Positions 3,667-62,598 of a DNA stretch of 62,598 bases are shown in pieces. Below the pieces are notes generated by a model. It made no database searches. It was not told the DNA's origin and was given only the letters and a program-made list of their open reading frames with translations. The translations under genes and the position numbers were made by a program. This DNA is from a virus. Numbering within the stretch: the stretch's first letter is position 1; every line of letters begins with the position of its first letter. The DNA lies in the IMG/VR virus record IMGVR_UViG_3300025316_000018, positions 1 through 62,598 of that record. One strand, 5' to 3'.

Positions 3667-3674
3667 TATAAATA
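3667..3674 (+). promoter_or_regulatory. T4-type late promoter
   Basis: Exact TATAAATA, the T4 late-promoter -10 element, 20 bp before the first gene of the curli/holin operon. It implies transcription late in infection through a sigma-gp55-like factor. Confidence 0.7.
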
Positions 3675-3694
3675 TGTGTAATATTGGGGGATTA

Positions 3695-3970
3695 ATGGAT
3701 ATATTAAAATTTATAAGCGATGTGGGATTTCCAATAGCAGCCGCCTGTGTTGGATTCTACTTTGTGTATCTTACGTTGAAGTTTATTCTTGAAGGTGTGT
3801 CTGGTTCAGTCAAAGGATTGACAGGTATCATATCAGCATTGGATAGGCGTGTTGCGACAATGAACCACGATGTCTTGCGTATTGATGTACTTGTATCTAA
3901 TGCACTTCAAATCAAACCTGATGTTGATCGTATAGCACGAGCAGAACAATCTGATGCGAGGCGAGATTAA
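3695..3970 (+). CDS. Single-helix membrane protein, paralogue of next gene
   Basis: 91 residues: a short polar start containing GFP, one membrane helix (about 14-37), then an amphipathic helical tail. The ATG at 3695 follows a GGGGG stretch. The next protein shares the layout, including the GFP motif before the helix, so the pair looks like a duplication. The form would fit a holin accessory or membrane-anchored coiled coil. Its place at the head of a late operon is consistent with lysis or envelope work, but this is inference. Confidence 0.75.
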   Translation: MDILKFISDVGFPIAAACVGFYFVYLTLKFILEGVSGSVKGLTGIISALDRRVATMNHDVLRIDVLVSNALQIKPDVDRIARAEQSDARRD

Positions 3971-4242
3971 TGGATTTAGTATTATTATCAAAATCTATAA
4001 ATGAATTTGGTTTTCCAGTAATAGCATCTATAGGTATGGGTGCTATGATATATTTTATTTGGGTGTGGGCAACAACCGTAGTCAAACCTATGCTGTCGGA
4101 AGCCAGTACAACATTGATAGCACTAATAGACCGAGTTAGATTATTAGATAACGATTTGATAAGATTAACTCAGAAAGTAAATGTGGTTCTTATGTTACGG
4201 GATGTAAAGAATGAAAATTCTAATACTTCTGATACTGATTAG
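3970..4242 (+). CDS. Single-helix membrane protein, paralogue of previous gene
   Basis: 90 residues with the same plan: polar start with GFP, a membrane helix (about 15-38), and a helical charged tail rich in Leu, Asp and Arg. It starts by TAATG overlap with its paralogue and overlaps csgF by 32 nt, so translation is probably coupled. Function unknown. Confidence 0.75.
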   Translation: MDLVLLSKSINEFGFPVIASIGMGAMIYFIWVWATTVVKPMLSEASTTLIALIDRVRLLDNDLIRLTQKVNVVLMLRDVKNENSNTSDTD

Positions 4243-4642
4243 TAATAACACACAAGCAGAACAATCATTCTCATTTAAGTCACCATCATTTTCTGGTATT
4301 GGGTATTCATCCCATGTTCAAACCATAGAGAATACAGAAACCACACGAAAACAAGCAATACAAGCATCAAACTTACAAGCAGCAAAGGATGCTGCTGCAT
4401 TAGCTGGTAATACTACTCTTCAGAAGTTTCTGAACAATTTCGAAAGTCGTGTTTATGCTCAATTATCAACACAATTGATTAATAATCTATTTGGTGTCAA
4501 CCCACAAACGAGTGGTACTGTTACTATTGAGGGTAACACAATACAATACACCAAGACCGCTGATCAGATTTCCATGACTGTAACTGATGCTAGTGGTAAT
4601 ATAACTCAGGTAGTAATCCCTGTCGGTAGTCTGACATTCTGA
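4211..4642 (+). CDS. csgF: CsgF-like curli assembly protein
   Basis: 143 residues with a signal peptide (about 1-16, cut after TQA). The mature N-terminus, Ser/Phe-rich with SPSFSG, matches the segment of CsgF that plugs into the CsgG pore. A helical middle (TTLQKFLNNFESRVYAQL) and a beta C-terminus follow, as in the family (about 138 residues in E. coli). In bacteria CsgF sits on the outer side of the CsgG channel and couples export to nucleation. The csgG gene follows at once (TGATG). No CsgE gene is visible nearby. Assignment rests on pattern and neighbour, not a search. Confidence 0.8.
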   Translation: MKILILLILISNNTQAEQSFSFKSPSFSGIGYSSHVQTIENTETTRKQAIQASNLQAAKDAAALAGNTTLQKFLNNFESRVYAQLSTQLINNLFGVNPQTSGTVTIEGNTIQYTKTADQISMTVTDASGNITQVVIPVGSLTF

Positions 4643-5430
4643 TGCGTATTCTATTGTTGTGTTTATTGTTAACCGGATGTTCATCGTGGCCATCACCCTT
4701 TGTAACATGGACTAATGAACCAGAACTTTTGGATATAAAACCAAAAGAAAAGGTAATTCTGCCGTCACCAAAAGACGGTAAGATTGTTGTTGCTGTATAT
4801 TCGTTTATGGATAAGACCGGACAAAGAAAGGATTCTGCTACTATTGCAAAGTTATCATCTGCTGTAACACAGGGTGGTGAATCAATTCTGTTGAAATCAC
4901 TGGAAGATGCTGGTGGTGGTATGTGGTTTAGGGCAGTAGAACGGGTAGGTTTAGATAACCTATTGAAAGAACGACAATTGATTAGGTCGGCAAGGGATGA
5001 AGCAAAGGATGACAAGCGTATAGGTTCAATATTATATGCTGGTATGATAATCGAAGGTTCCATAGTATCGTATGACACTAATATTCGCACTGGTGGTATT
5101 GGTATACGCTATTTGGGTATAGGACCAGACACACAATATCAGGAAGATATGGTAACTGTCTCACTTCGAGCAATTAGTACACAAACTGGTGAGGTATTAA
5201 TCACCGTTAATGTACAGAAAACAATTTTGAGTTATACATTAGGTGTTGCTGTATTCAAATTTTTCGACACTGGTACACAATCATTTGAAAATGAGATTGG
5301 TGCCACTAAAACGGAAGCTGGGATATATGCATTAAAATCTGCGTTAGATTTAGCTGTAGAGGAATTGATTATTAAGGGTGAGCGAAAATCGTTATGGAAA
5401 TTTTCATCAACTTATAAAGGAAATAACTAA
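4642..5430 (+). CDS. csgG: CsgG-like outer-membrane secretion lipoprotein
   Basis: 262 residues, close to the bacterial length (277). A lipoprotein signal ends in LLTGC with Cys13 as the lipidation site. The body has the CsgG fold landmarks: KIVVAVYSFMDKTGQ, a WFRAVER stretch, the NLLKERQLIRSARDE helix, and a transmembrane beta-hairpin region around residues 135-200. CsgG forms a nonameric pore exporting curlin subunits. It is flanked by csgF and a curlin-repeat gene in a late-promoter operon. A phage might use it for export or to permeabilise the outer membrane during lysis; neither is shown. Confidence 0.9.
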   Translation: MRILLLCLLLTGCSSWPSPFVTWTNEPELLDIKPKEKVILPSPKDGKIVVAVYSFMDKTGQRKDSATIAKLSSAVTQGGESILLKSLEDAGGGMWFRAVERVGLDNLLKERQLIRSARDEAKDDKRIGSILYAGMIIEGSIVSYDTNIRTGGIGIRYLGIGPDTQYQEDMVTVSLRAISTQTGEVLITVNVQKTILSYTLGVAVFKFFDTGTQSFENEIGATKTEAGIYALKSALDLAVEELIIKGERKSLWKFSSTYKGNN

Positions 5431-6138
5431 ATGCACATCTTAAGAAACATTCTGTTGATTAGTATGCTTTTGAGTAGCCAAACAACCATGAGTGATAGTG
5501 GTGGTAATTTTGTTTACATAGACCAAACTAATGCGGACAATTCTACCGTTAGTATTACACAAACAGGATCAAATAACACAGTAGGTGATCCTAATTCAAT
5601 ATCGGCACCATCATTTGTCATTGAGGGTAATTCAATGTTCGTCACTATCCTTCAAGATGGTATGAACAACGCGATAACTGGTAACATAATAGGTGGTGGC
5701 ACAACTGCTAATATTACACAAACCGGTAACAGCAACTTTACCAACTTCAATATGGGTAACATGGGTACGTCTTCTGGTCTATTGAACATGACAATGACTG
5801 GTAGTAATAATATATCTAATATGAACATTGGATTATTACATGATTCAAGTAATTACACATACACAGCATTATTGACTGGTAGTAATAATACATTAACCAG
5901 CACAATTAATAGCAAATATACCGTAGATTCATTCACCGTCACAGGATCAAACAATGCTATCACGACAAACCAAACTGGTGCTAATGGTTCTAATAATGTT
6001 ATTGGTAATAATATTGCCATTTCCAATATTGGAAACTCTAATTCTATAAGCATCGTACAAGATGGAACAACGAATCCGAATAGTGCTATTGTCAACCTTG
6101 TGGGTAATAACGCTGCTGTGTCTGTCGTCCAACATTAA
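5431..6138 (+). CDS. Secreted curlin-repeat protein
   Basis: 235 residues with an N-terminal signal peptide (about 1-20) and then imperfect repeats of the curlin type, such as VSITQTGSNNTV, ANITQTGNSNF, LTGSNNTL and VTGSNNAI. Their regular Gln, Gly and Asn-Asn positions are the ones that stack in curli amyloid. It is probably the export substrate of the CsgG channel encoded just upstream. It resembles CsgA/CsgB by composition and repeat, not end to end. The last 77 nt overlap the next gene in another frame. Confidence 0.85.
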   Translation: MHILRNILLISMLLSSQTTMSDSGGNFVYIDQTNADNSTVSITQTGSNNTVGDPNSISAPSFVIEGNSMFVTILQDGMNNAITGNIIGGGTTANITQTGNSNFTNFNMGNMGTSSGLLNMTMTGSNNISNMNIGLLHDSSNYTYTALLTGSNNTLTSTINSKYTVDSFTVTGSNNAITTNQTGANGSNNVIGNNIAISNIGNSNSISIVQDGTTNPNSAIVNLVGNNAAVSVVQH

Positions 6139-7117
6139 TGCTGGTATTGGCAAGGTAACAGAACAGAAGGGTAGTGCATCTATTACACGAGAGAAATCGG
6201 TAATAGATGCTAAGAAAGATTCCAGTGTTGATAGTTTAGATACTATTGAAACTGGTAAAGGTGAGGTTGGTATCTCATTTGATGATGATACACAAGTAAA
6301 AGTAACCGAGAACAGTAAACTGGTCATAGATGATTTCGTATATGACCCCAAGAATAAATCTGTTGGTAAGTTAGCATTGAAATGTGCTATTGGTACTGTG
6401 AGATATGCTTCAGGTAATATTGCCCACGATAACAATAAGAATGTGGCAATCAATACACCAACAGCAACTATAGCAGTTCGTGGTACTGCATTTACTATGA
6501 CCGTAGATGAAATTGGTCAATCTATGGTCATATTGTTACCTAATTTAGATGGTAGTGTTGGTGAAATTGAGGTCAGAACTGCAATGGGTTCGGTAGTATT
6601 GAACCAAGCATTTCAAGCAACTGTGACTACATCTAATGAGATTAAACCCACTAAACCTGTGGTGTTACTTATTGCTGAGTCTGCTATAAATAACATGATG
6701 ATAGTAAAACCACCCAAGGAAATTAGTCAGAAGTTGATTGATGATAACAAAGCATCAGCATTAGACTTTAAGGGATTAGAAAAGGATGCACTATCGGTAA
6801 GGGTATTTGTTGACCCCTATGCAAAGTTCAACGAATTAAGTGTTGATTTATTGGCGATAGATTATTTGACAAACGTATTAGATAGTTTTGGTACAGTAAC
6901 AACATTTTCGGCTGGATACAATAATAGTAACCAAGTTTATATATTCGACAAAGAATCAAATTGGCTAGTCCAAAGAACGGTGAAACAGAGTGCTACATTA
7001 TTATTGAACAAAGATCGTGGTTATAGTGTGACACTTATACAAGATGGGATTACCGTGAAGATGCAAAGTGCAGATACAACCACTAATACTATTCTAATCA
7101 AACAAGGTGCAAACTAA
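6062..7117 (+). CDS. Secreted FecR-domain protein
   Basis: 351 residues. A signal peptide (about 1-27, ending INA) precedes a FecR domain (about 28-150). The domain shows IETGKGEVGISFDDDTQVKV, GTVRYASG and the INTPTATIAVRGT signature; the rest is beta-rich and unassigned. In bacteria FecR domains are periplasmic and often accompany CHASE2 cyclases, one of which is encoded convergently at 7.5-9.5 kb. The start lies 77 nt inside the curlin gene in another frame and has no strong ribosome site, so it may depend on coupling. Its stop overlaps the holin start. Confidence 0.85.
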   Translation: MEQRIRIVLLSTLWVITLLCLSSNINAGIGKVTEQKGSASITREKSVIDAKKDSSVDSLDTIETGKGEVGISFDDDTQVKVTENSKLVIDDFVYDPKNKSVGKLALKCAIGTVRYASGNIAHDNNKNVAINTPTATIAVRGTAFTMTVDEIGQSMVILLPNLDGSVGEIEVRTAMGSVVLNQAFQATVTTSNEIKPTKPVVLLIAESAINNMMIVKPPKEISQKLIDDNKASALDFKGLEKDALSVRVFVDPYAKFNELSVDLLAIDYLTNVLDSFGTVTTFSAGYNNSNQVYIFDKESNWLVQRTVKQSATLLLNKDRGYSVTLIQDGITVKMQSADTTTNTILIKQGAN

Positions 7118-7410
7118 TGGCAGTAGCAAAAACAATCGTTATAGCAAAAGAGAAAGAACACTGGACATCGACTGGTTGGAGACCAGCACTTGCGTGGAGT
7201 TATGTTTTAATATGTATATTTGACTTTGCGATAGGTCCAATTATATTCAACGTTTTGCAATATTGGAATCCTGGACAATCAATCAGTGCATATACAGCAG
7301 TTACTTTGCAGGGATCGGGGTTGTATCATCTTTCAATGGGTGCGGTATTAGGTTTAACTACTCATGGTCGTACTAAAGAGAAGATAGAAGCAGGAAAAGT
7401 AACAGAATAA
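7117..7410 (+). CDS. 3TM-type holin-like membrane protein
   Basis: 97 residues with the pattern W.STGWRP.LAW, CIFDFAIGP and a Gly/Leu-rich third hydrophobic stretch (GLYHLSMGAVLGL), as in the three-helix holins related to gene-transfer-agent holins. Holins open the inner membrane at the end of infection. It is last in the late operon, coupled by TAATG, which fits lysis timing. The endolysin is encoded 2.4 kb away on the other strand. Confidence 0.75.
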   Translation: MAVAKTIVIAKEKEHWTSTGWRPALAWSYVLICIFDFAIGPIIFNVLQYWNPGQSISAYTAVTLQGSGLYHLSMGAVLGLTTHGRTKEKIEAGKVTE

Positions 7411-7466: not shown

Positions 7467-9536
7467 CTACTTACTTGTTGGTCTGTATACCCCATCCCAG
7501 CCTTTGGGTAGTTTCTTACTGAGTTCATAATCAGCAATTCGTTGTATCATCATATCATAGTAGTAATCTAACTCACCATCAAAACATCCTTTCAACGAAT
7601 CACATAAACCCGCAGCATCTTTCCATTGCTGTGCTTGATAATGTGTAAACATTTTATTATGTGTTTCTCTGAATATGTTGCTTGGATATGTCGGTGATGT
7701 TATTACTGTATAGATGTCAACACCTTCAGATTTACCCTTTACGGAAATTGTATCTAACTTAATAAAGAACTCATTCATATGTAAAAACCCACCCAACACA
7801 TTTTCGGATTTTAGTTTATCTAATGTGTTCTTGCTTAGTATTAATGAAACTCCATAATTTTTAGTCTGTCCCTCTAATCGCGCAGCAAGATTAACTTCAT
7901 CACCCAATATATCATAACTAAATCTATCTTTAGACCCCATATTACCAATAAATACCGTTCCTGTACTGAGACCTGCCCCAACTTGTAATGGTGGTTTACC
8001 TTCAGCAACCAATTCAATATTCAATTCTGCTAATGCAACTTCCATTTCTTTTGCTGCTTTTAATGCTTTAGTTGCCTGATTCTCTACATCTAATGGGGCA
8101 CCCCACCAAGCCATTATTGCATCGCCTATCAGCTTACCAACAGTACCATCATTATCCATTATTATAGGAAGCATCTTATCCATATATCTTGTAATAAGAT
8201 TAGTTAAACCTTGAGGGTCGGTTTTATAATGTTCTGAAATAGTTGTGAATGACCTGATATCAGAAAAGTATATAGTTAGTTCTTTAGAATCACCACCCAA
8301 CTTCAACAGTTCTGGATTCTTCTGTAACTTTTCCACATAGTCAGGACTTAAATATGTTCCAAACTGCTTCTTTATCTGAAGTTTTGCTTTAAGTTCTGTG
8401 ATGAATAAGGTGGCGTGTGTGTGGCCAAATACAACTCCCCCTGCCAGAATAGGTATTGTAATGTCAATGAGATAATACAAATGGGTATATAGATACAGAG
8501 AAATAGGATAAACACTAACAATGATACCACAAAATATAAAAATTCCATACTTGATCCTTGATATTAAGATTGAGAAGATGCTAAGTATAATCATAGCAAG
8601 TATTTCTGCACCAGTACTCCAATCAGGTCTTGAAATATTGGTACCGGTTACTAGTGTATTTAGTATTGATGCTTGAAAGTTATGTGGAAAGATAGCACCG
8701 TTAGAAGTGGCGACTGGGTTGTTAAGACCTCTGGCAGTAAGTCCAACAATGACGATACTGGAATTAAAGGACTCTGGAAGGTGAATGGAGGAGTATTCTG
8801 TAAATATTGCTGGTTTAACCCATATTCTACCGATACTGTCTGTTCCAATCTTTCCAAACGTTGGTATCCTGACAGCTTCAATTGATCCATCGTTAACTTT
8901 GACTTGGAAAGATTTATCACCCGAAGCGACTCGCAATGTTTCGAGGCTGATGCTAGGGTACAATAGTCCATTGGAAGAGACCACCATTGGTACTCTTCTG
9001 GTAACGCCATCAATTTCGGGGAGTGTATTAACAACACCAACACCAGCAGCAGTATCATTAAGTGCTTGTATATTAGGTTGAATATTTTCATAAGAGATTC
9101 CCACATCACCTGTACCAATTACCGATACACCTGGTCTAAATGCGTCATAAGTTTTTGTGAATACATCATTAGTACCTGTCTGGGGTAGAACAACAGGGTA
9201 TTCAGTTAGTATTGTAGCAAAACTACTGTCCTGTCCGGATCTATCCGCATCTGGTAGAAATACATTAAATACAACAAGACCAGCACCATGATCGTAAAGT
9301 TCTTTAATAATTGAACCATACTCATTTCGTGGAAATGGCCATTGACCTTTTTGAGAAATCGTTTCATCATCTATATTTACCAGTACAATATCAGAATGTT
9401 GTATATCTTGTGTTAGAAGAGTATCAAAGTATCTTAACCTGATACTCTCCACGAATGTTGGGTCAAGTACTCTTATCCCAATGATGATTGATAATGTTAT
9501 TAATGCACACCAACGGGATAAAAGTATCTTCTTCAT
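7467..9536 (-). CDS. CHASE2-domain adenylate/guanylate cyclase
   Basis: 689 residues, full length for the architecture. An N-terminal membrane helix (about 5-22) is followed by a periplasmic CHASE2 sensor (about 25-310; SDIVLVNIDDETIS, WPFPR, VRVPMVV-like core). Three closely spaced helices (about 312-385) lead to a cytoplasmic class III cyclase domain (about 425-610). That domain has two metal Asp sites (TIYFSDIRSFT and KLIGDAIMAWWG), LGDEVNLAARLEG with the catalytic Arg, and a C-terminal helical extension. It should make cAMP or cGMP in response to an envelope signal. It lies convergent to the FecR gene and is followed by a small gene joined base to base. Class III cyclases are rare in phages. 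Confidence 0.92.
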   Translation of the reverse strand: MKKILLSRWCALITLSIIIGIRVLDPTFVESIRLRYFDTLLTQDIQHSDIVLVNIDDETISQKGQWPFPRNEYGSIIKELYDHGAGLVVFNVFLPDADRSGQDSSFATILTEYPVVLPQTGTNDVFTKTYDAFRPGVSVIGTGDVGISYENIQPNIQALNDTAAGVGVVNTLPEIDGVTRRVPMVVSSNGLLYPSISLETLRVASGDKSFQVKVNDGSIEAVRIPTFGKIGTDSIGRIWVKPAIFTEYSSIHLPESFNSSIVIVGLTARGLNNPVATSNGAIFPHNFQASILNTLVTGTNISRPDWSTGAEILAMIILSIFSILISRIKYGIFIFCGIIVSVYPISLYLYTHLYYLIDITIPILAGGVVFGHTHATLFITELKAKLQIKKQFGTYLSPDYVEKLQKNPELLKLGGDSKELTIYFSDIRSFTTISEHYKTDPQGLTNLITRYMDKMLPIIMDNDGTVGKLIGDAIMAWWGAPLDVENQATKALKAAKEMEVALAELNIELVAEGKPPLQVGAGLSTGTVFIGNMGSKDRFSYDILGDEVNLAARLEGQTKNYGVSLILSKNTLDKLKSENVLGGFLHMNEFFIKLDTISVKGKSEGVDIYTVITSPTYPSNIFRETHNKMFTHYQAQQWKDAAGLCDSLKGCFDGELDYYYDMMIQRIADYELSKKLPKGWDGVYRPTSK

Positions 9537-9790
9537 TAATCTAGGTCCTCATTCATCTTTGTGTGTATATCACATAAGAATGATTTGTAATATTCAACGA
9601 GACTGCCATTGAATGAATCTTTAAGTTCTATACAATTGGTGGCAGCTCTTCTATAACACTTCTTCTCAAAAAGTTCCACGGTTTCATTGTGTAGGTTTCT
9701 CGACAACGAATACGCAAATGTATTGAAATCATTAACGGGTATTTGAAAAGAACCCAATTCCTTTTTATGTGTGACGATTTCCATGTACAT
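9536..9790 (-). CDS. Small hypothetical protein
   Basis: 84 residues, soluble, with three Cys and a helical C-terminus. It starts by TAATG overlap with the endolysin stop; a second ATG at 9784 is possible. It shares base 9536 with the cyclase start. The C-terminal tail of the cyclase has a similar AAGLCDSLKG.FDGEL stretch to this protein's AATNCIELKDSFNGSL, so the two may share a helical repeat. Function unknown. Confidence 0.65.
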   Translation of the reverse strand: MYMEIVTHKKELGSFQIPVNDFNTFAYSLSRNLHNETVELFEKKCYRRAATNCIELKDSFNGSLVEYYKSFLCDIHTKMNEDLD

Positions 9791-10560
9791 TAGAACAAAT
9801 CCGAAAACCAGTTTCCTATAGAATCGAGAAAGTCATCATCTTTCTCTACTGCTTGTTCATCAGGTATAGCAACTTCTTCTGCAACAACTACAGCAATAGC
9901 GGCAGCAGCAATTACTGGAGTCACAACTGGTGCTGGTTCAGAAAATACATCATCACTAATTACTTTCATTGCTTCATCATAGTGTTTCTGTCTGTCTTTT
10001 AGACCAATAACCCCACCATTAATTTTCTTAGTTAATGTGACGAAATCTCCAGAATCACAGAATTGGTTTAGTTTATTTACCGACCAAAACCAACAGGAGC
10101 TAGATGCTGCACCCTCAAGAGTATTGCAATATGATACAGTTTCATCTAATGTCTTGCCAATGGATTTAGCAAAACGTGAATAATTATCCTTACCAGTAAG
10201 CTGTAAAAATCCGACCCCGCGATACTTAAACCCATCACCAGAAGCTTCTGTACCATTGCCCATGCGATCAGCATATACCTTGTTTGCTATACGTTCAGGA
10301 TTACGGTTGTATGGTGCTGCCATCGCAGCAGAGGTGAACCTTTTTGGCCATACTGAGCAAAGACCAGCGGCAGAATAGTTAAGGTTTTCTTTTAGTGCTG
10401 TGAACTGGGCAGATTCGTGGATAGTTTGACTCAAGAATCCACAAACTCTTTTCTTATTGTCTATACCATACTCAGGGAGGATCTTGTTCAATACTGCACA
10501 CAACGCATCCAAGTCTTTATTATTTGGACACAACACTTTTAATTGAGATACACTGATCAT
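9790..10560 (-). CDS. GH19 (chitinase-like) endolysin
   Basis: 256 residues. The GH19 fold is shown by GFLSQTIHESAQF with the catalytic Glu, KYRGVGFLQLTGKDNYSRF, and a C-terminal NGG...DR segment. In phages this family cleaves peptidoglycan glycan strands to lyse the cell. After about residue 205 there is an unusual Ala/Val-rich hydrophobic segment and an acidic DFLDSIGNWFSDLF tail, which could tether the enzyme to membrane or partner. The ATG at 10560 has AAGGA nine nt upstream; an upstream in-frame start at 10608 is not supported. Confidence 0.9.
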   Translation of the reverse strand: MISVSQLKVLCPNNKDLDALCAVLNKILPEYGIDNKKRVCGFLSQTIHESAQFTALKENLNYSAAGLCSVWPKRFTSAAMAAPYNRNPERIANKVYADRMGNGTEASGDGFKYRGVGFLQLTGKDNYSRFAKSIGKTLDETVSYCNTLEGAASSSCWFWSVNKLNQFCDSGDFVTLTKKINGGVIGLKDRQKHYDEAMKVISDDVFSEPAPVVTPVIAAAAIAVVVAEEVAIPDEQAVEKDDDFLDSIGNWFSDLF

Positions 10561-10653: not shown

Positions 10654-11445
10654 ATGACTATATATACATTAATAGATCCAACATATTTATACATCAAACA
10701 ACACTCTGTCACTAAAAAGAAATACTTCGGTAAGACTAGTAAAACAGACCCAATAAAGTATTTAGGCTCTGGCACTTACTGGTTGAGGCACATTAAGAAA
10801 CACGGTAAACAATTCGTAGAAACTTTGTGGGTTTCTGATATATATCACGATACATCTATAGTTGATATAGCATTACATTTTTCATCGGAAAATGATATAG
10901 TAGGGTCCGATGAATGGGCTAATCTACAAGTAGAAAACGGATTGGATGGAGCCAGTACTAGATCACAAGAATCGATATCCAAAGGAAAGTCCACAAACAT
11001 TGAAAGATATGGGGTAGATAATTGGGGTAAAAGTGATGCTGGTAAAGAACATAATAGAGATTCAGTACATCATCAAATATTAAATGGTTTGCACACATCA
11101 ACAAATGGTGGTAGTGAGATTATAAAGAGAACCAACGCTAGGATGTTATCTTTAGGTACACACCCTTTTCAAGGTAAACATGGTAGTGCTCGCTCATCCA
11201 AATTAGCAGAAAAATTAATATCTGATGGTACCCACAATTTCTTATCTCAAGATCATAAAGATAATGTCAGTAAGAGTAATTATACATTATCTAACAGACC
11301 AGAATACTTAGAGTTAAAATTCATATATGAGGACCTTGGGCTGAAACAACCAAAATTCTTACACATGAAATCATTAGAAGATATAGCGATATTAAGATTG
11401 GGTGTTGTTGGACAATATTTCCCATATATCAATAAAGATTGTTAA
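10654..11445 (+). CDS. GIY-YIG homing endonuclease with NUMOD motifs
   Basis: 263 residues. The N-terminal 95 residues are a GIY-YIG-type nuclease of the phage Seg-like group (YLYIKQHS...KKYFGKT, then LGSGTYWLRHIKKHG). The C-terminal part has repeated GTHPFQG- and GTHNFL-type modules (about 170-215), as in nuclease-associated modular DNA-binding regions. It should cut a specific phage site to spread its own gene. It is a lone plus-strand gene inside minus-strand genes, with its own late promoter and leader. Its start is homologous to the gene at 12836. Confidence 0.85.
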   Translation: MTIYTLIDPTYLYIKQHSVTKKKYFGKTSKTDPIKYLGSGTYWLRHIKKHGKQFVETLWVSDIYHDTSIVDIALHFSSENDIVGSDEWANLQVENGLDGASTRSQESISKGKSTNIERYGVDNWGKSDAGKEHNRDSVHHQILNGLHTSTNGGSEIIKRTNARMLSLGTHPFQGKHGSARSSKLAEKLISDGTHNFLSQDHKDNVSKSNYTLSNRPEYLELKFIYEDLGLKQPKFLHMKSLEDIAILRLGVVGQYFPYINKDC

Positions 11446-11635: not shown

Positions 11636-12415
11636 TTATACATTTTCGATATTATTTTCTTTACTTTCATTTCTATTTGTCCACGTTACTATTTCGAATC
11701 GACCATCATAGTGTTCTACTAATGCGGTCATACTTTCTACCCAGTCACCATCATTCATATACACAATACCATCAATTTCTTTGATGTCGGCAGAGTGTAT
11801 GTGACCACAAATAATGCCGTCAAACTTTCGTTTTCTACAGTATTCTAGTATATTTGTCTCAAATTCGAATATGAATGATACAGCTGTCTTGACCTTGCTC
11901 TTGATGTATTTGCTGAGTGACCAATACCCAAATCCCATCTTGTGTCTAACCCAATTGAATTTGTTGTTCAATATTAGTATTAGATCATATCCTTTATCAC
12001 CAAGTATACTTAACCAAGGTGCTAATTTAGAAATCCCATCAAACATATCACCATGAACTACAAGATATCGTTTACCGTCTATACCAATGTGTTCTATTTG
12101 ATTTACTATTTCTATATCACCAAACCCAATATTATAAGGTATCATTGGACGAAGAAACTCGTCATGATTACCGGCAATATAGATAACTCTTGTGCCTTTC
12201 TTTGCAATCTTTAATATCTGTTGGACAACATTGGAATGGGATTGTTTCCAAAACCACTTGTTCTGTTGAATTCTCCAGACATCTAGGATATCTCCAACAA
12301 GGTATAGAGTTTCACATTTATTGTGTTTAAGGAAATCTAGAAGTTGTAGGGCCTTACAATCTCTAGTACCAAGATGAACATCCGATATAAAGATTGATTT
12401 GTAGTGTTGTTTCAT
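11636..12415 (-). CDS. LpxH-like UDP-2,3-diacylglucosamine diphosphatase / metallophosphoesterase
   Basis: 259 residues of the calcineurin-like phosphoesterase fold with all metal motifs in order: SDVHLG (11-16), GDILDVWR, AGNHDE, VHGD and CGHIHSA. The GDxLDxW and NHDExLR variants are typical of the LpxH group, which cleaves UDP-diacylglucosamine to lipid X in lipid A synthesis, at the inner-membrane surface. A different phosphodiester substrate is possible. It lies last but one in a short minus-strand run between two homing endonuclease insertions and is coupled to a membrane peptide gene upstream. In a phage it may alter lipopolysaccharide or the envelope. Confidence 0.85.
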   Translation of the reverse strand: MKQHYKSIFISDVHLGTRDCKALQLLDFLKHNKCETLYLVGDILDVWRIQQNKWFWKQSHSNVVQQILKIAKKGTRVIYIAGNHDEFLRPMIPYNIGFGDIEIVNQIEHIGIDGKRYLVVHGDMFDGISKLAPWLSILGDKGYDLILILNNKFNWVRHKMGFGYWSLSKYIKSKVKTAVSFIFEFETNILEYCRKRKFDGIICGHIHSADIKEIDGIVYMNDGDWVESMTALVEHYDGRFEIVTWTNRNESKENNIENV

Positions 12416-12763: not shown

Positions 12764-12835
12764 TATAAATAGTTATAGGTCACGAGATTGGCGTCTCTAC
12801 CTATTCTAATACTTTCACGGAGCATCAGCATTAAT
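12764..12835 (+). promoter_or_regulatory. Late promoter and hairpin leader of homing endonuclease gene (copy 2)
   Basis: TATAAATA at 12764-12771, hairpin ATAGGT/ACCTAT plus GAGA/TCTC, then CTATTCTAATACT and GGAG. Where copies 1 and 3 have ATG, this copy has ATT (12830-12832), so the start moves to the ATG at 12836. Confidence 0.75.
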
Positions 12836-13606
12836 ATGTATACAGAAATAATACCAACATATCTTTACATCAAACAACATTCAGTAACAGGTCTAAAATA
12901 TTTCGGTAAGACTACAAAACCTGATCCAATAAAATGTCTAGGCTCAGGTAAGTATTGGAAATCCCACATCAAGAAACACGGCAAAGAGCATGTGGTGACT
13001 TTATGGTGTCAGTTGTTTGATACCCAAGAATTACTAACGGATTTTGCATTATTATTTTCTGAACACTGGGATATTGTTAATTCTAAAGTGTGGGCCAATC
13101 TAATATTAGAAAATGGATTAGATGGTACAATACCAGGAACTATTTTCGGTCCAAGATCGGATGAAACAAAAGCAAAAATATCAGCATCCCATATAGGTAA
13201 AATAGTTTCTGATGAAACAAAAGCAAAACTATCAGAAATAAACACTGGGAAAGTTGTTTCCACCGAAACAAAAGCAAAAATATCAGCATCTAATACAGGA
13301 CAGAAAAGGACGGAAGAAACCAAGGCAAAAATGTCAGCATCTCGCATAGGTATGAAAGTTTCTGATGAGGTGAGAATTAACATGTCTAAACCAAAATCAG
13401 ACCAACATAAAGTAAACTTAACTATTGCTCAAAAATTAAGGTGGATCAATAATCCTTGTACTGATGAAACTAAATTAAAAATGTCTAATATCAAAAAGGG
13501 AATACCAAAACGAATAATAGAATGTCCGCAATGTGGTAAATCTGGTGGAGAACCACAAATGTGTCGATGGCATTTCAATAATTGTAAATCCCTTAGTGAC
13601 GATTAA
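12836..13606 (+). CDS. GIY-YIG homing endonuclease with NUMOD3 repeats and zinc motif
   Basis: 256 residues. The nuclease half (YLYIKQHSVTGLKYFGKT, LGSGKYWKSHIKKHG) matches the gene at 10654. At least four NUMOD3-type repeats follow (about 110-190), each with DETKAKIS-like and IGK/TGK segments. The C-terminus has a CPQCG...H..NCK zinc-binding motif (about 230-250), also found in the endonuclease at 62 kb. The gene is plus-strand, alone, with its own late promoter. ATG 12836 is the first usable start; see the ATT at 12830. Confidence 0.88.
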   Translation: MYTEIIPTYLYIKQHSVTGLKYFGKTTKPDPIKCLGSGKYWKSHIKKHGKEHVVTLWCQLFDTQELLTDFALLFSEHWDIVNSKVWANLILENGLDGTIPGTIFGPRSDETKAKISASHIGKIVSDETKAKLSEINTGKVVSTETKAKISASNTGQKRTEETKAKMSASRIGMKVSDEVRINMSKPKSDQHKVNLTIAQKLRWINNPCTDETKLKMSNIKKGIPKRIIECPQCGKSGGEPQMCRWHFNNCKSLSDD

Positions 13607-40300: not shown

Positions 40301-42301
40301 CTATGATATCATATTAATAAAACGGTTCAGTACGACTCTATTAGTAGTTCTTTGTTTTGAGAACTTAGTAAATGAGGATACCAGACCACGGGTTGTTGCA
40401 TTTTCTTTCACTTTTAGTTCTGCATCTTCAGCTGTATCCATGCCATCAGCTCTTAGTAGGTAGTATTCATCGTAACCGGCGGTAGTAACGACTTTATAGT
40501 TATCTCTTCGGAACTGTGCTTTAATAGCATCATGATCAATTGTATCTGGGAACAGATATTCAATCGCTGATATTGATCGTCTATCCACGACATAGAACCC
40601 TATTATATTACACTTTGTGATGGACTTCAACAGTTTAAGGTAAGCTGATGTGACTAGTCTACCAACATGCGGAGATTTAATAGTTTCTTGGTGTTTTGAT
40701 TTTGGGTCGCGTATCACGAGTGCTTTAAATGTGTCGGGGTCGGGGTCGATACCCAGACCTATTCTGTCTATTCCATCGTTATAGTGTATGGATCTGTTAC
40801 CATCTGATTCGCCATCCGTGAGGAACACTGTGTTAACGATTTGCAGATTATAGTCTTTTTTAAACTTTGGTACTACTGTCATTGCAGTTACTATAGCGGC
40901 ATTTAGTGGAGTACACCCCAGAGAGAACCATTTAGGAGCTGATTGGTACTCATGCATGTTTCTTGATAAGATAAGCAATGATTGTACGGCATAGTTATAT
41001 TCTCTCGTGGTCATTTTATTCGATAGGATGTTCAGCATATTAACTGACGAGAATATTTCCAGATCCCCGTCTTTGTGTTTTTGTTTACTTTCAGCACATC
41101 TATCGGTAAATGCGTATACCTCGAATGGTATATTAACTTGTTTGCAGAACATGACCAGATTGAGCAATTGTTTAACGGTATTATGCAGTGTATTCTGCAT
41201 AGAACCTGACCAGTCTATGAACAGCACTAATCCATGAGATTTACCATTGGGCACGACCGCTAGTTTCTTGAACACGTCATCCGCGAACTTATACGAGAAT
41301 ATAGCATCCATATTGAGTTCACCGGTTTTGGCGACAGAAGCACGTTTTAGTTGTTGAGCATTCTTTTTCAGTTCGAACTCTTTCACTAGGTATGCCACGA
41401 CTTTCTTTGATTCTGTTCTGAAAGTTTGGTACAGGTCATTATTCAGCACTAATCGTTGTTGATAATGTTCTCGGTAGTATTCTGGGTGTATTAGATCGAC
41501 ATATGTGCGATAGTTTCGCCACACGATTTTATGGTCTACTATTACTTTATCCATATCCACGGTTGGTATATTTCCGTAGTAGTATTCAAAATTAGCCTCT
41601 GAGTATAGTTGTTCTTGGTTTTTTCGTAATGCGTTATCGGTTTCTGACTCTACACGTTTTTGATAGTCGCCTGATTCACCATCGCCATCCCCATCACTTT
41701 CTTGTTCCTCTCCTTCATCATCATTTGGATTGGTGGGTTCTTTATCTTCTATTTCGAGATAATCCATCACTTTTCTTGCTACTATTAGCACCTCATCTAT
41801 TGTGGTACAATTCAAGATCTCTTCCATCAGGTCTTGTTCTATTGTTGTGATGAAATCTATACCACTATTAACACCGAGCTTTATGTACATATTAGCTCTA
41901 TCGATGAAATTTAGTTCATTGATATTAGTATCTTCTGTGCCGAAGAAGTTTCTCTGGACAAGATCATTATAGCCTATGATGAATGGTTGTTTTAGTCCTG
42001 GATATTTGGACTTGATCATTTTTTCTATACGAGCATCTTCTATCACATTTAGCACAGAGAATGTGATGTCTAGTTCTTTAGATCGTGTAAGGAGTTCTGG
42101 TGGTGTGAACAGTGCATGACCGACTTCATGGCCCATGAACAGATCATATAATTCTGGGATAATCTTATCGTCTAGTATAGGTATTGTTAGAATACGGTTA
42201 ATCACATCGAAAGATGCTGTTCTAACTTTACGTTGTTCAACGATAAGATTTTCTGATGCCATTAATTTGGCGAGGATTGATTTGGACTGTACTAATTTCA
42301 T
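40301..42301 (-). CDS. Metallopeptidase-like / vWA-domain protein
   Basis: 666 residues. Near the N-terminus HEVGHALFT (His58, Glu59, His62) with a downstream EDARIEK segment resembles a zinc metallopeptidase site. An acidic linker (about 183-212) leads to a von Willebrand A domain starting about 355 with the metal-site motif DWSGSM (363-368) and later conserved Thr and Asp. The combination occurs in T4-like phages and in CobT-like chelatase subunits. It may work with an AAA ATPase in assembly or remodelling; the substrate is unknown. A sigma70-type promoter lies 32 bp upstream. Confidence 0.82.
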   Translation of the reverse strand: MKLVQSKSILAKLMASENLIVEQRKVRTASFDVINRILTIPILDDKIIPELYDLFMGHEVGHALFTPPELLTRSKELDITFSVLNVIEDARIEKMIKSKYPGLKQPFIIGYNDLVQRNFFGTEDTNINELNFIDRANMYIKLGVNSGIDFITTIEQDLMEEILNCTTIDEVLIVARKVMDYLEIEDKEPTNPNDDEGEEQESDGDGDGESGDYQKRVESETDNALRKNQEQLYSEANFEYYYGNIPTVDMDKVIVDHKIVWRNYRTYVDLIHPEYYREHYQQRLVLNNDLYQTFRTESKKVVAYLVKEFELKKNAQQLKRASVAKTGELNMDAIFSYKFADDVFKKLAVVPNGKSHGLVLFIDWSGSMQNTLHNTVKQLLNLVMFCKQVNIPFEVYAFTDRCAESKQKHKDGDLEIFSSVNMLNILSNKMTTREYNYAVQSLLILSRNMHEYQSAPKWFSLGCTPLNAAIVTAMTVVPKFKKDYNLQIVNTVFLTDGESDGNRSIHYNDGIDRIGLGIDPDPDTFKALVIRDPKSKHQETIKSPHVGRLVTSAYLKLLKSITKCNIIGFYVVDRRSISAIEYLFPDTIDHDAIKAQFRRDNYKVVTTAGYDEYYLLRADGMDTAEDAELKVKENATTRGLVSSFTKFSKQRTTNRVVLNRFINMIS

Positions 42302-50306: not shown

Positions 50307-50708
50307 TTATTTAAATATACCCAAATGGTTTAGTAAGAACACGAACCCTGCCGCACCACCAATTAACAACCATCGCCAGTTTTCTAATGCTGACAATCTA
50401 TCAGAAATAGCTCTGCTCTGTGTTGATGATATATCTGCATGTTCCTTGATCTTTTCTTCTATTCGAGTCTCCATGTCTTCTATCTTGGCGACTATTTCTC
50501 GTGTATTATCTGCCATTTTACTATATAGGTCCCTTACATCAGTTAATGTCTCTTTATTACCATCTTCGAGATGATTTATTCTTGAATCATGTACTGCTAA
50601 TAATCTAGTTACTTCTGATGATGCTTTTGCTATTTCTGCAACAGTGTTATCTATTTTGTATACTACTGTACGTAATACCGCAACTTCAACGTTAATGTCA
50701 CTTTGCAT
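50307..50708 (-). CDS. Coiled-coil protein with C-terminal membrane helix
   Basis: 133 residues: a long helical region with heptad-like spacing (about 1-108) and a tail anchor WRWLLIGGAAGFVFLLNHLG. The plan is like XhlA-type lysis accessory proteins, and it follows the spanin genes with an 11-nt overlap, so a lysis role is plausible but unproved. Confidence 0.7.
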   Translation of the reverse strand: MQSDINVEVAVLRTVVYKIDNTVAEIAKASSEVTRLLAVHDSRINHLEDGNKETLTDVRDLYSKMADNTREIVAKIEDMETRIEEKIKEHADISSTQSRAISDRLSALENWRWLLIGGAAGFVFLLNHLGIFK

Positions 50709-51288
50709 TGTCTAGCTCCTTCTGTTGCCTAACCCAATCTTGCAGGGCCTTTAGTTGTTCAACTACTTCGTAATATGTGCCGTAGTTTCTGCTGACGTTT
50801 TCGGCAACACCAGAGAGTTTAATGTCGGTGGGGGTGTCATTAGCAATTCCGGTGGATTCGGGAACTTCATTTTTTGCGGCAGAGTTGAGCAGCTCGACAA
50901 AACCGTTATTGATAACACACTTAGCATCAGAAGCTTTATTGATGTATTCAGGTACTTTCTTAATAATAACATTAGTTTTTCCTTTGACTATTTGAACTCT
51001 ATCAACATATTTAGTAACCACTTGTGTAGTTATTTCAGCGGCGGCAAGTTCTTGCTTTGCTATTTCTGATTGCATCTGAAGTACTTTTATTTGCCATGCT
51101 GCTTCGTTGGTAATAGCACCGACCATAAACACACCAAATGTGAATAGTGCAACAGATAGATATTTTAATGCTAATCTATATGTTATCGGTATTAGTATAC
51201 CGAACGCGAATGCTATGAATAGACCAACCATACCGAGTAAGGTTATGACATAAAATATCCATTGTGGCAGAAATTCTAAAATAAACAT
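50698..51288 (-). CDS. Rz-like inner-membrane spanin
   Basis: 196 residues. Two hydrophobic segments near the N-terminus (about 8-33 and 40-58) precede a long periplasmic helical region and an LKALQDWVRQQKEL end. The complete Rz1-like lipoprotein gene lies inside it in another frame, which is the classical Rz/Rz1 arrangement. Spanins fuse inner and outer membranes in the last step of lysis. Two N-terminal helices instead of one is unusual for Rz. Confidence 0.78.
   Translation of the reverse strand: MFILEFLPQWIFYVITLLGMVGLFIAFAFGILIPITYRLALKYLSVALFTFGVFMVGAITNEAAWQIKVLQMQSEIAKQELAAAEITTQVVTKYVDRVQIVKGKTNVIIKKVPEYINKASDAKCVINNGFVELLNSAAKNEVPESTGIANDTPTDIKLSGVAENVSRNYGTYYEVVEQLKALQDWVRQQKELDNAK
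50763..50972 (-). CDS. Rz1-like outer-membrane spanin lipoprotein (embedded)
   Basis: 69 residues in an alternative frame wholly within the Rz-like gene: MLLLRKYLNTSIKLLMLSVL, lipobox VLSSC, then a Pro-rich mature part (PNPPELLMTPPPTL). AAGGA lies 10-11 nt before the ATG at 50972. Signal, lipobox, Pro-richness and nesting together make the call strong. Confidence 0.82.
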   Translation of the reverse strand: MLLLRKYLNTSIKLLMLSVLSITVLSSCSTLPQKMKFPNPPELLMTPPPTLNSLVLPKTSAETTAHITK

Positions 51289-61023: not shown

Positions 61024-61297
61024 CTACGATTTCCTGTCCTGCGCTGTTGGCCATGATAGCTATTAAAATATTTCCTATAAAATCTCTGAACTCTATGCTG
61101 TCTAGATCATCGAATTTATTATATTCTACTATATCATGAGTAAATTGTAAATACATTTTACCATCTTCTTCTTCAACACCCACTTTACCGAAATTAAATA
61201 CTACCCCTTGATACCCACCAGACAATAGTTTTATGTGTACAATTTCAGGATCATATTCAGGTATCAAGAATGAATAATCAATGCCTTCCTCCATCAT
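60983..61297 (-). CDS. Protein in the gene-40 position
   Basis: 104 residues, acidic (MMEEGIDYSFLIPEYDPEIV), alpha/beta. It lies between uvsX and 41 exactly where T4 has gene 40, a head-vertex assembly factor of similar size. I infer equivalence from position; sequence similarity could not be judged. ATGA overlap with the uvsX stop and a 41-nt overlap with 41. Confidence 0.6.
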   Translation of the reverse strand: MMEEGIDYSFLIPEYDPEIVHIKLLSGGYQGVVFNFGKVGVEEEDGKMYLQFTHDIVEYNKFDDLDSIEFRDFIGNILIAIMANSAGQEIVDESRTSNTEELNT

Positions 61298-61839
61298 AGC
61301 ACATCCTCAATAGCTTCTAGTTCACTAGCAATATCATCATCAGAGATAATTGCACCATTAGATACCTGATAGTTTTCTTTGATCCATTGCTGGAAGCTAG
61401 TGCTTGAAATAAGAGGCATCCAGAAATCTTTAGTGTCGGTATCTTTTGCACGGTATTTCTTTTCGGAAATCTCACCTGTTTCAACATCAACCTTAGAGTA
61501 CCAGCCATTAGATGGTTTAACCACATGACCAGATTCTAGTGCCATTTCAAGTAAACCAGACCATTTACTAAGACCACCATCAAATTTAACGGTAACAGGA
61601 ATCTTAGACTTTTCACGTGAATGTCTAGACTTTTCTACGTTAATGATGAAGTTGTATCCAGTTAATTCAGTACCATCTTTCTCTTGTTGTCTACCAAGGA
61701 TGAAAATGTTGTCGGCAGAAAGATAGATACCAGTATTATGAGTTATCACTCCATTTTCTAAAACATATTGGTGATTATCTGCTACTGTAATATCAAAAAC
61801 TCTTTTTTTGCCCACTTTTTCAATGCTAGTTATTTTCAT
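61294..61839 (-). CDS. uvsX: C-intein plus C-terminal half of UvsX recombinase
   Basis: 181 residues. The first 35 are a C-terminal intein fragment: VFDITVADNHQYV and ENGVITHN, with the splicing-motif His-Asn and Thr36 as the +1 extein residue. After it the UvsX core resumes at TGIYLSADNIFILGRQQEKD and continues through LTGYNFIINVEKSR, KIPVTVKFDGGLSKWSGLLE and WYSKVDVETGE. The breakpoint is in the DNA-binding loop of RecA-type proteins. The gene has its own ATG with GAGAG upstream, and the Walker A half is outside the window. Two half-proteins would have to be joined by trans-splicing. Confidence 0.92.
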   Translation of the reverse strand: MKITSIEKVGKKRVFDITVADNHQYVLENGVITHNTGIYLSADNIFILGRQQEKDGTELTGYNFIINVEKSRHSREKSKIPVTVKFDGGLSKWSGLLEMALESGHVVKPSNGWYSKVDVETGEISEKKYRAKDTDTKDFWMPLISSTSFQQWIKENYQVSNGAIISDDDIASELEAIEDVL

Positions 61840-62598
61840 ATTTTCTCTCTTTACAATTATCGTTATGCCAACGAACTATATTACCAACCGTAGAAGTTAT
61901 TCCGCAATGTTCACAAGATGCTCTCTTTTGGATTGTTGCAGGATTTTTCCAAATATTTACATCATATAAATCTAAATCTAATCGATCAACCTTTAATACT
62001 TCTCCAGTATCAAAATTCTTAAGCATTATTTTATCTTTATTTGCTATCGATACAATTAACTTATGTTCTTCAGTCATTGGAAGTTTAGCAACTTTTTCTA
62101 TCCAATTGGATATTTCCTCTGGACTTTTAATCCTACCCTTATTTCCAATGCCCTGCAATATCTTAGATTCATCTGTATGTTTCTTCCCATAAAAACTATT
62201 TTCTTCTCCTGATCTTCCCCTTAATTTTTTCTCTTCTTCCGATAAGATTGTCCCCTTTGTAACACCAACCCAGTTACCGTTTAAAACCTCTGGATGTAAT
62301 CTAGGCAATCTAGCTATCTTACCCGTTAATAAATTTTTATATGTTGCATAATCTGGATCTGTATAGGAATTGATAGATGCAACACTTTTATTAAAATAAT
62401 TAGGAGACGCAACAACATCGTTAGCAATATGACTATCTTTTTCTGCCATTAAAGCGTCATTATACACATCAAACTCGCCCAATACAAAAACTTCATAATC
62501 ACACTCCGCTAATGCAGACAAATACAAATCAGACTCACTAGAACCTTCATATATTTTACCTCTTTTATCCTGTATTTTTCCATTTATAATTGAACAAT
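61826..62598 (-). CDS. Homing endonuclease inside the split uvsX locus (partial)
   Basis: At least 256 residues, open to the window edge. A NUMOD3-type segment (GEENSFYGKKHTDESKI) follows HPEVLNGNWVGVTKG. The C-terminus has a CEHCG...H..NCK zinc motif shared with the gene at 12836. The visible N-terminal part (KIYEGSS..., FVLGEFDVYNDALMAEKDSH) is consistent with a nuclease of the same group, but the catalytic start is off-window. It ends 14 nt inside the C-intein gene. It may be free-standing or joined to the N-intein upstream. Confidence 0.75.
   Translation of the reverse strand, partial: CSIINGKIQDKRGKIYEGSSESDLYLSALAECDYEVFVLGEFDVYNDALMAEKDSHIANDVVASPNYFNKSVASINSYTDPDYATYKNLLTGKIARLPRLHPEVLNGNWVGVTKGTILSEEEKKLRGRSGEENSFYGKKHTDESKILQGIGNKGRIKSPEEISNWIEKVAKLPMTEEHKLIVSIANKDKIMLKNFDTGEVLKVDRLDLDLYDVNIWKNPATIQKRASCEHCGITSTVGNIVRWHNDNCKERKYENN

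Follow-up and report, generated by a model that had tools for sequence, protein, structure and literature searches.

Why would a phage carry the outer-membrane pore of bacterial curli secretion together with a substrate for it? This question is raised by a 62.6 kb viral DNA fragment (IMG/VR record IMGVR_UViG_3300025316_000018, positions 1-62,598; hereafter the window), in which genes for CsgF, CsgG and a curlin-repeat protein form an operon. In our analysis, the module probably serves the late-expressed secretion of curlin amyloid through CsgG-CsgF, with a FecR-domain partner, a CHASE2 sensor and a pair of small transmembrane (TM) proteins, a reading based on gene content and order, two-way co-occurrence, purifying selection and promoter conservation. 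The window is part of a T4-like (Kyanoviridae-type) phage genome, since its DnaB helicase shows 62-63% identity to cyanophage homologues and homologues of its peptidase (40301-42301) are nearly confined to cyanophages, marine viruses and pelagiphages.

Gene content, co-occurrence and promoter of the module

The seven + strand open reading frames (ORFs) between 3695 and 7410 all overlap or abut. The features of this region are as follows.

3667..3674, + strand: T4-type late promoter octamer TATAAATA, just 5' of the first ATG at 3695
3695..3970, + strand: TM1, 91 amino acids (aa), one N-terminal membrane segment, conserved C-terminal DxRRD (phrog_18771, 4.9e-30)
3970..4242, + strand: TM2, paralogue of TM1 (phrog_18771, 1.9e-26, and alignment)
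4211..4642, + strand: CsgF, with signal peptide (PF10614, 2.1e-15)
4642..5430, + strand: CsgG outer-membrane lipoprotein pore (PF03783, 3.4e-53; lipobox LTGC)
5431..6138, + strand: curlin-repeat protein, presumed secreted amyloid subunit, with signal peptide (PF07012)
6062..7117, + strand: FecR-domain protein, exported (PF04773, 1.1e-8)
7117..7410, + strand: holin-like protein (GTA_holin_3TM, 5.8e-4, below cut-off; phrog_3427 holin, 1.3e-4)
7467..9536, - strand: CHASE2-domain class III adenylate cyclase (AC) (CHASE2, 1.7e-35; cyclase, 6.6e-19)

This ORF layout and the profile matches bear out the claim of an initial annotation, made from the sequence alone, that CsgF, CsgG and a curlin-repeat substrate are encoded in one coupled operon; the products of 4211-4642 and 5431-6138, on whose homology that claim depended, match CsgF (PF10614) and curlins, respectively, in profile searches. 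The CsgF and CsgG matches both exceed the Pfam cut-off. The boundaries it drew did not hold: the FecR-domain gene and the CHASE2 cyclase had been overlooked, and the two small membrane proteins, taken as flanks, are members of the module. The FecR-domain gene begins 77 nucleotides (nt) inside the curlin gene in a different frame (6062-6138), and an overlap of equal length is seen in loci L004 and L006.

Carriage of a bacterial amyloid secretion system is widespread among aquatic phages, those infecting SAR11 and OM43 included, as relatives of the window CsgG are encoded on at least 583 viral contigs. For comparison, a total of 97 viral loci was used (14 and 80 from two scans, two cultured phages and the window), and profiles made from the window proteins were run against every ORF of the collected loci. 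Loci with enough flank form the denominators of these co-occurrence counts. CsgF stands alongside CsgG in 96 of 96 viral loci, and curlin follows CsgG in all 88. The FecR gene lies directly after the curlin gene in the window and in 78/78 viral loci, and among the 53 well-covered viral loci the cyclase is present in 49 and the TM genes in 48. The constant company of the CsgG pore and a curlin substrate points to secretion. Among close relatives, dN/dS is 0.05-0.12 for CsgF and CsgG and 0.12-0.22 for the curlin, indicating purifying selection.

The association of the TM genes with the module holds in both directions. Of 84 loci found with TM sequences and having at least 1.5 kb downstream, 83 contain csgF or csgG (some contigs are represented twice), and the sole exception, L242, has AC, FecR and curlin genes near its truncated end. 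Among 50,697 phage records, the TM matches are exactly the six csgG phages, and a seventh csgG match is a 1.5 kb fragment. In one group of loci the TM pair precedes csgF; in a second it follows the cyclase, on the other strand. It has therefore stayed with the module through a rearrangement, and we count both small membrane proteins as members. The TM-family alignment offered no conserved stretch as a collection query, and single sequences worked. TM1 (3695-3970) and the gene at 7136-7411 of L005 encode an identical protein at a dS of about 1.0, while TM1 and its L004 counterpart are no more than 60% identical; for a single gene of this size, the rate of change is very uneven.

The exact late-type octamer noted earlier before the operon was confirmed (TATAAATA, 3667-3674), and its position is conserved in relatives. 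No enrichment of TATAAATA was found in the window as a whole (10 found, 9.66 expected). It occurs no more than 80 nt ahead of the first gene in 30 of 58 TM-first modules, compared with 11 of 320 other ORFs; because the loci are related, the number of independent events is far smaller than these counts, and the formal p-value overstates the difference. In modules with a relocated TM pair the octamer precedes csgF in only 4/36 cases, and it was found before none of the 19 relocated TM pairs, 71 cyclase genes and 9 GH19 genes. From this pattern we infer that the module is transcribed late in infection. Elsewhere in the window, two related homing-endonuclease-like ORFs (10654-11445 and 12788-13606, + strand) each stand shortly after TATAAATA, opposite to the neighbouring genes.

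Predicted properties of the module proteins

The window CsgG matches E. coli CsgG over nearly its full length (phmmer, 1.5e-47), and the lipobox Cys13 is invariant in the alignment. Its constriction loop is curli-like, with Leu or Phe at the E. coli F56 position, as in bacterial relatives. Loss of the constriction as a phage peculiarity was considered and rejected, as Ser at position 51 and Leu/Phe at position 56 also occur in many bacterial CsgGs. The position of E. coli F48 does distinguish the two groups: it is Arg/Lys in 97/97 viral proteins, versus Tyr/Phe in 72 of 75 bacterial ones. Adjoining the constriction, these residues would place a charged ring close to it. An unannotated record of 1499 bases (OR851715.1, Salmonella phage S.Kent 1-2-1) contains a csgG 41% identical to that of the window and may be a host curli fragment labelled phage in error.

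At its N-terminus the phage CsgF has the motif FxFKSPSFxGxGYSxH, the counterpart of the end by which E. coli CsgF binds CsgG, and F22, P25, F27, G29, G31, S33 and H35 of this motif are invariant among 14 phage CsgFs. A single-sequence search of CsgF against the PDB (phmmer) obtained no true match, and E. coli CsgF in 6l7a aligns weakly with the N-terminus of the phage protein (E 0.35). Judged from the strong conservation of the motif, CsgF appears to keep its CsgG-binding N-terminus.

For the curlin-repeat protein, the match of PF07012 to the whole sequence is below the cut-off (0.0029, 18.0 bits), while in a genome-level search the summed score over neighbouring repeats is 27.6 bits and thereby exceeds the cut-off of 20.7. 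Searched with a profile of the phage curlins, the PDB yielded solved curlins (8c50, 7.8e-18; 8enq, 4.5e-4), and the AlphaFold model is all-beta (pLDDT 84, pTM 0.80). A tblastn search with the curlin against cultured phages obtained no match, because the curlin diverges fast; neighbourhood and profiles did find curlins.

The FecR-domain protein consists of a signal peptide, a FecR/PupR-type domain, a linker and a C-terminal beta domain. In the structural model the FecR/PupR-type domain is confident (Z 15.1 to PupR, 6ovk) and so is the C-terminal beta domain, and the linker (about 200-280) is poorly predicted. The protein has no cytoplasmic anti-sigma part as in classical FecR, for which reason the label 'iron regulator' is doubtful. 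Its domain also resembles a 'cell surface anchoring domain' (5ix9; Z 7.3 over 73/76 residues, below the threshold of Z 8 for a clear match), which is only a lead. The C-terminus carries a possibly curlin-like tail, QDG...NTILIKQG, and phage FecR proteins tend to end in Q-x-G ... N-x-h-x-h-x-Q, resembling the last curlin repeat. When scored with a repeat profile, 62% of the FecR tails exceed the 95th percentile of shuffled tails (5% expected). The bacterial homologue in locus L098 was found to have no Q-ended tail. The phage tail suggests that the FecR-domain protein may touch or cap the fibre.

Reading of the cyclase sequence revealed the catalytic signature (FSD, GKxIGD, YDxxGDxVNxAAR) with its two metal aspartates, Asn and Arg, and a Lys/Asp pair of the kind typical for ATP cyclases. 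The gene mostly lies on the csgG strand in relatives and is inverted in the window lineage.

Published curli modules and bacterial counterparts

The arrangement of the module is already published for pelagimyophages, methylophage Melnitz and uncultivated pelagiphages. A curli cluster was described in pelagimyophages, with 'sibling capture' as its proposed role (PMC7029224), and a set of histidine kinase (HK)-CsgF-CsgG-CsgA/B-FecR-CsgA/B-AC was reported in podo- and myophages, with an alphaproteobacterial origin and expression in the ocean (PMC9599517). Hosts of the SAR11 and OM43 groups are reported to have no curli system, though their phages carry the module (PMC7029224, PMC9004378). No later experimental work on the phage curli module was found in the literature searched. 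As far as that literature shows, the two-way membership of the TM genes, the unsupported HK label, the exclusion of the holin, the conservation of the promoter, the possible FecR tail and the Arg/Lys signature of CsgG are additions to it.

Compared with the type VIII secretion system (T8SS) of pelagiphages (PMC9599517; HTVC008M, KC465899, PMC7029224), the window shares the gene order of one or two small upstream genes, CsgF, CsgG, curlin, FecR and cyclase, and in neither was CsgE found. It differs in the inverted cyclase, the missing second curlin and the holin-like gene between the FecR and cyclase genes. A further difference concerns the published 'HK': the upstream genes of the window encode 90-aa membrane proteins, and neither TM1 nor TM2 gave a histidine-kinase signal in Pfam or NCBIfam searches, leaving an identification as kinases unsupported. 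The published 'HK' position holds two homologous 90-aa genes (a correspondence checked via HTVC008M and Melnitz only), and the label looks wrong. TM1 and TM2 are not convincing as holins either, with a single 19-residue match at 0.0097.

Melnitz (MZ577097, PMC9004378) has the order TM-TM-CsgF-CsgG-curlin-FecR-curlin-AC, and its CsgG is 47% identical to that of the window over 79% of the protein. Unlike the window, it contains two curlins, a cyclase on the csgG strand and no adjoining holin, and its published reading is lysis. The curli system of E. coli (csgBAC, csgDEFG) likewise has a CsgG pore, CsgF and a curlin-repeat substrate, whereas the phage genes form one operon with extra FecR, CHASE2-cyclase and TM genes, and with no CsgE found.

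Nearly all of 80 loci from bacterial genomes contain only CsgF, CsgG and curlins. One of them, L098 (Hyphomonas sp. TMED17), lies among ordinary bacterial neighbours on a 705 kb chromosome contig and has CsgF-CsgG-curlin-FecR-AC without the TM pair. This gene set fits a descent of the phage module from an alphaproteobacterial operon, in agreement with PMC9599517. Alphaproteobacterial curli operons share CsgF-CsgG-curlin with the window, and L098 also the FecR and CHASE2-cyclase genes; they differ in having no TM pair and in the Tyr/Phe rather than Arg/Lys at the CsgG F48 position. Three 'genome' loci with TM genes (L099, L103 and L120) appear to be phage contigs that had been binned among bacteria.

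Probable curlin secretion and alternative functions

For a phage-borne type VIII (curli) secretion module acting late in infection, we infer a course from secretion and amyloid formation to tethering, sensing and an adhesive benefit. The curlin would be exported to the periplasm by Sec and would leave it through the CsgG lipoprotein nonamer, in whose barrel CsgF would be docked by its N-terminus; amyloid would then form on the infected cell or close to it. A periplasmic partner would be the FecR-domain protein, whose combination of a folded N-terminal domain with the curlin-like C-terminal tail suggests a role in tethering or nucleating the fibre. The CHASE2-adenylate cyclase would be an inner-membrane sensor, probably reporting envelope state or fibre export via cyclic AMP, and the two small membrane proteins are phage-specific module members. 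The likeliest benefit would be adhesive, neighbouring cells or released progeny being held together in dilute water. A more elaborate version, which we regard as rather doubtful, sees in the module a curli system that has been rewired: the exported FecR-domain protein, having gained a curlin-like tail, would replace CsgB as periplasmic anchor and nucleator of the amyloid, and the phage-only TM pair, located in the inner membrane, and the CHASE2 cyclase would tie fibre export to the lytic programme of late infection.

Several points weigh against curlin secretion. The fibres are predicted from the genes, and Foldseek with the curlin model obtained no close solved structure (best E 0.21, weak beta-helix matches). 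Alignment of the last 38 FecR residues with the curlin end by hhalign gave a probability of 13% (below 1% for unrelated module segments). Melnitz-infected cultured cells showed no clumping, and phage CsgF may have diverged away from pore binding (PMC9004378). CsgE (PF10627) was not found in the window, itself a 62.6 kb fragment, or in nine related phage records, with a positive E. coli control. The lack of CsgE stated in the initial annotation is thus confirmed within this fragment, while CsgB and CsgD, also listed there as missing, were not searched for as separate families. In E. coli without CsgE, secretion is reduced but not abolished (PMC7029224), and alphaproteobacterial modules are without CsgE as well (PMC9599517).

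Lysis genes of the window bear on one alternative; neither of the following two is part of the module.

9790..10560, - strand: GH19-type endolysin, lysis neighbour (phrog_181 endolysin, 3.3e-70)
50698..51288, - strand: Rz-like inner-membrane spanin candidate (phrog_2536, 5.5e-5, and two further Rz-like families)

The initial annotation had placed the csg operon between the small membrane proteins and the holin-like gene; a link to the latter is not supported by the comparison. In nine other loci found with the holin-like protein, csg genes are absent from all nine and a GH19 endolysin is present in six; conversely, among the 53 well-covered csg loci, a holin is near csg in 5 and GH19 in 7. As a module member the holin-like gene was rejected, with 0/9 homologue loci containing csg and most csg modules having no holin. 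Because its homologues travel with GH19 and not with csg, we judge it to be a lysis gene that in this lineage stands beside the module, in the same transcript, by chance.

In the lysis alternative, also raised in the initial annotation and proposed for Melnitz (PMC9004378), the CsgG pore would be put to a new use, making the envelope permeable in the manner of a pinholin or secretin and setting the time at which progeny are released. The late-type promoter, the holin-like gene in the transcript, the nearby GH19 endolysin and the lack of a detected CsgE gate are all compatible with it. Yet the curlin and FecR genes universally retained behind CsgG would be superfluous for a bare pore, the holin homologues do not accompany csg, and endolysin and Rz-like spanin candidates are encoded separately in the window. 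Pinholins, moreover, act in the inner membrane, whereas CsgG belongs to an outer-membrane lipoprotein family. In Melnitz itself, csgA/B was reported missing (PMC9004378), yet a curlin-repeat gene lies directly behind csgG. Lysis is the disfavoured rival against which the comparison speaks most, and we consider it unlikely.

Superinfection exclusion, in which fibres or an altered surface of the infected cell would block competing phages, was proposed in PMC9599517 and is consistent with secretion of a surface polymer, but with late expression the cell would stay unprotected for the greater part of the infection, and we give this role little probability. An uptake channel (PMC7029224, PMC9599517), with an ungated CsgG pore through which the infected cell would take up nutrients, siderophores or vitamins, agrees with the lack of a detected CsgE gate and with a FecR-domain partner; it leaves the constant curlin and CsgF and the late expression unexplained, and the partner, with its signal peptide, is not a classical FecR iron regulator, so that this role seems very improbable. 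The comparison narrows the question: pore and substrate are inseparable, the unit looks late-expressed, the TM genes are members and the lysis genes are not. Curlin secretion is therefore the hypothesis to pursue, and a cultured phage for doing so already exists.

Several other genes of the window were noted. A second lysis-type locus may be formed by the ORF at 50307-50708 (- strand), which adjoins the Rz-like candidate and encodes a coiled coil and a C-terminal membrane segment (hemolysin-like; phrog_1193, 4.8e-5). A UvsX-like recombinase (61294-62598, - strand; phrog_18112 recombinase, 9.8e-71), cut off by the window edge, seems to be split by an intein that includes an endonuclease-like part. 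An LpxH-like metallophosphoesterase is encoded at 11636-12415 (- strand), and its homologues lie beside the csg module in six loci (L010, L023, L035, L041, L043 and L071), mostly between the FecR and cyclase genes. This recurrent but optional neighbour is perhaps concerned with lipid A alteration.

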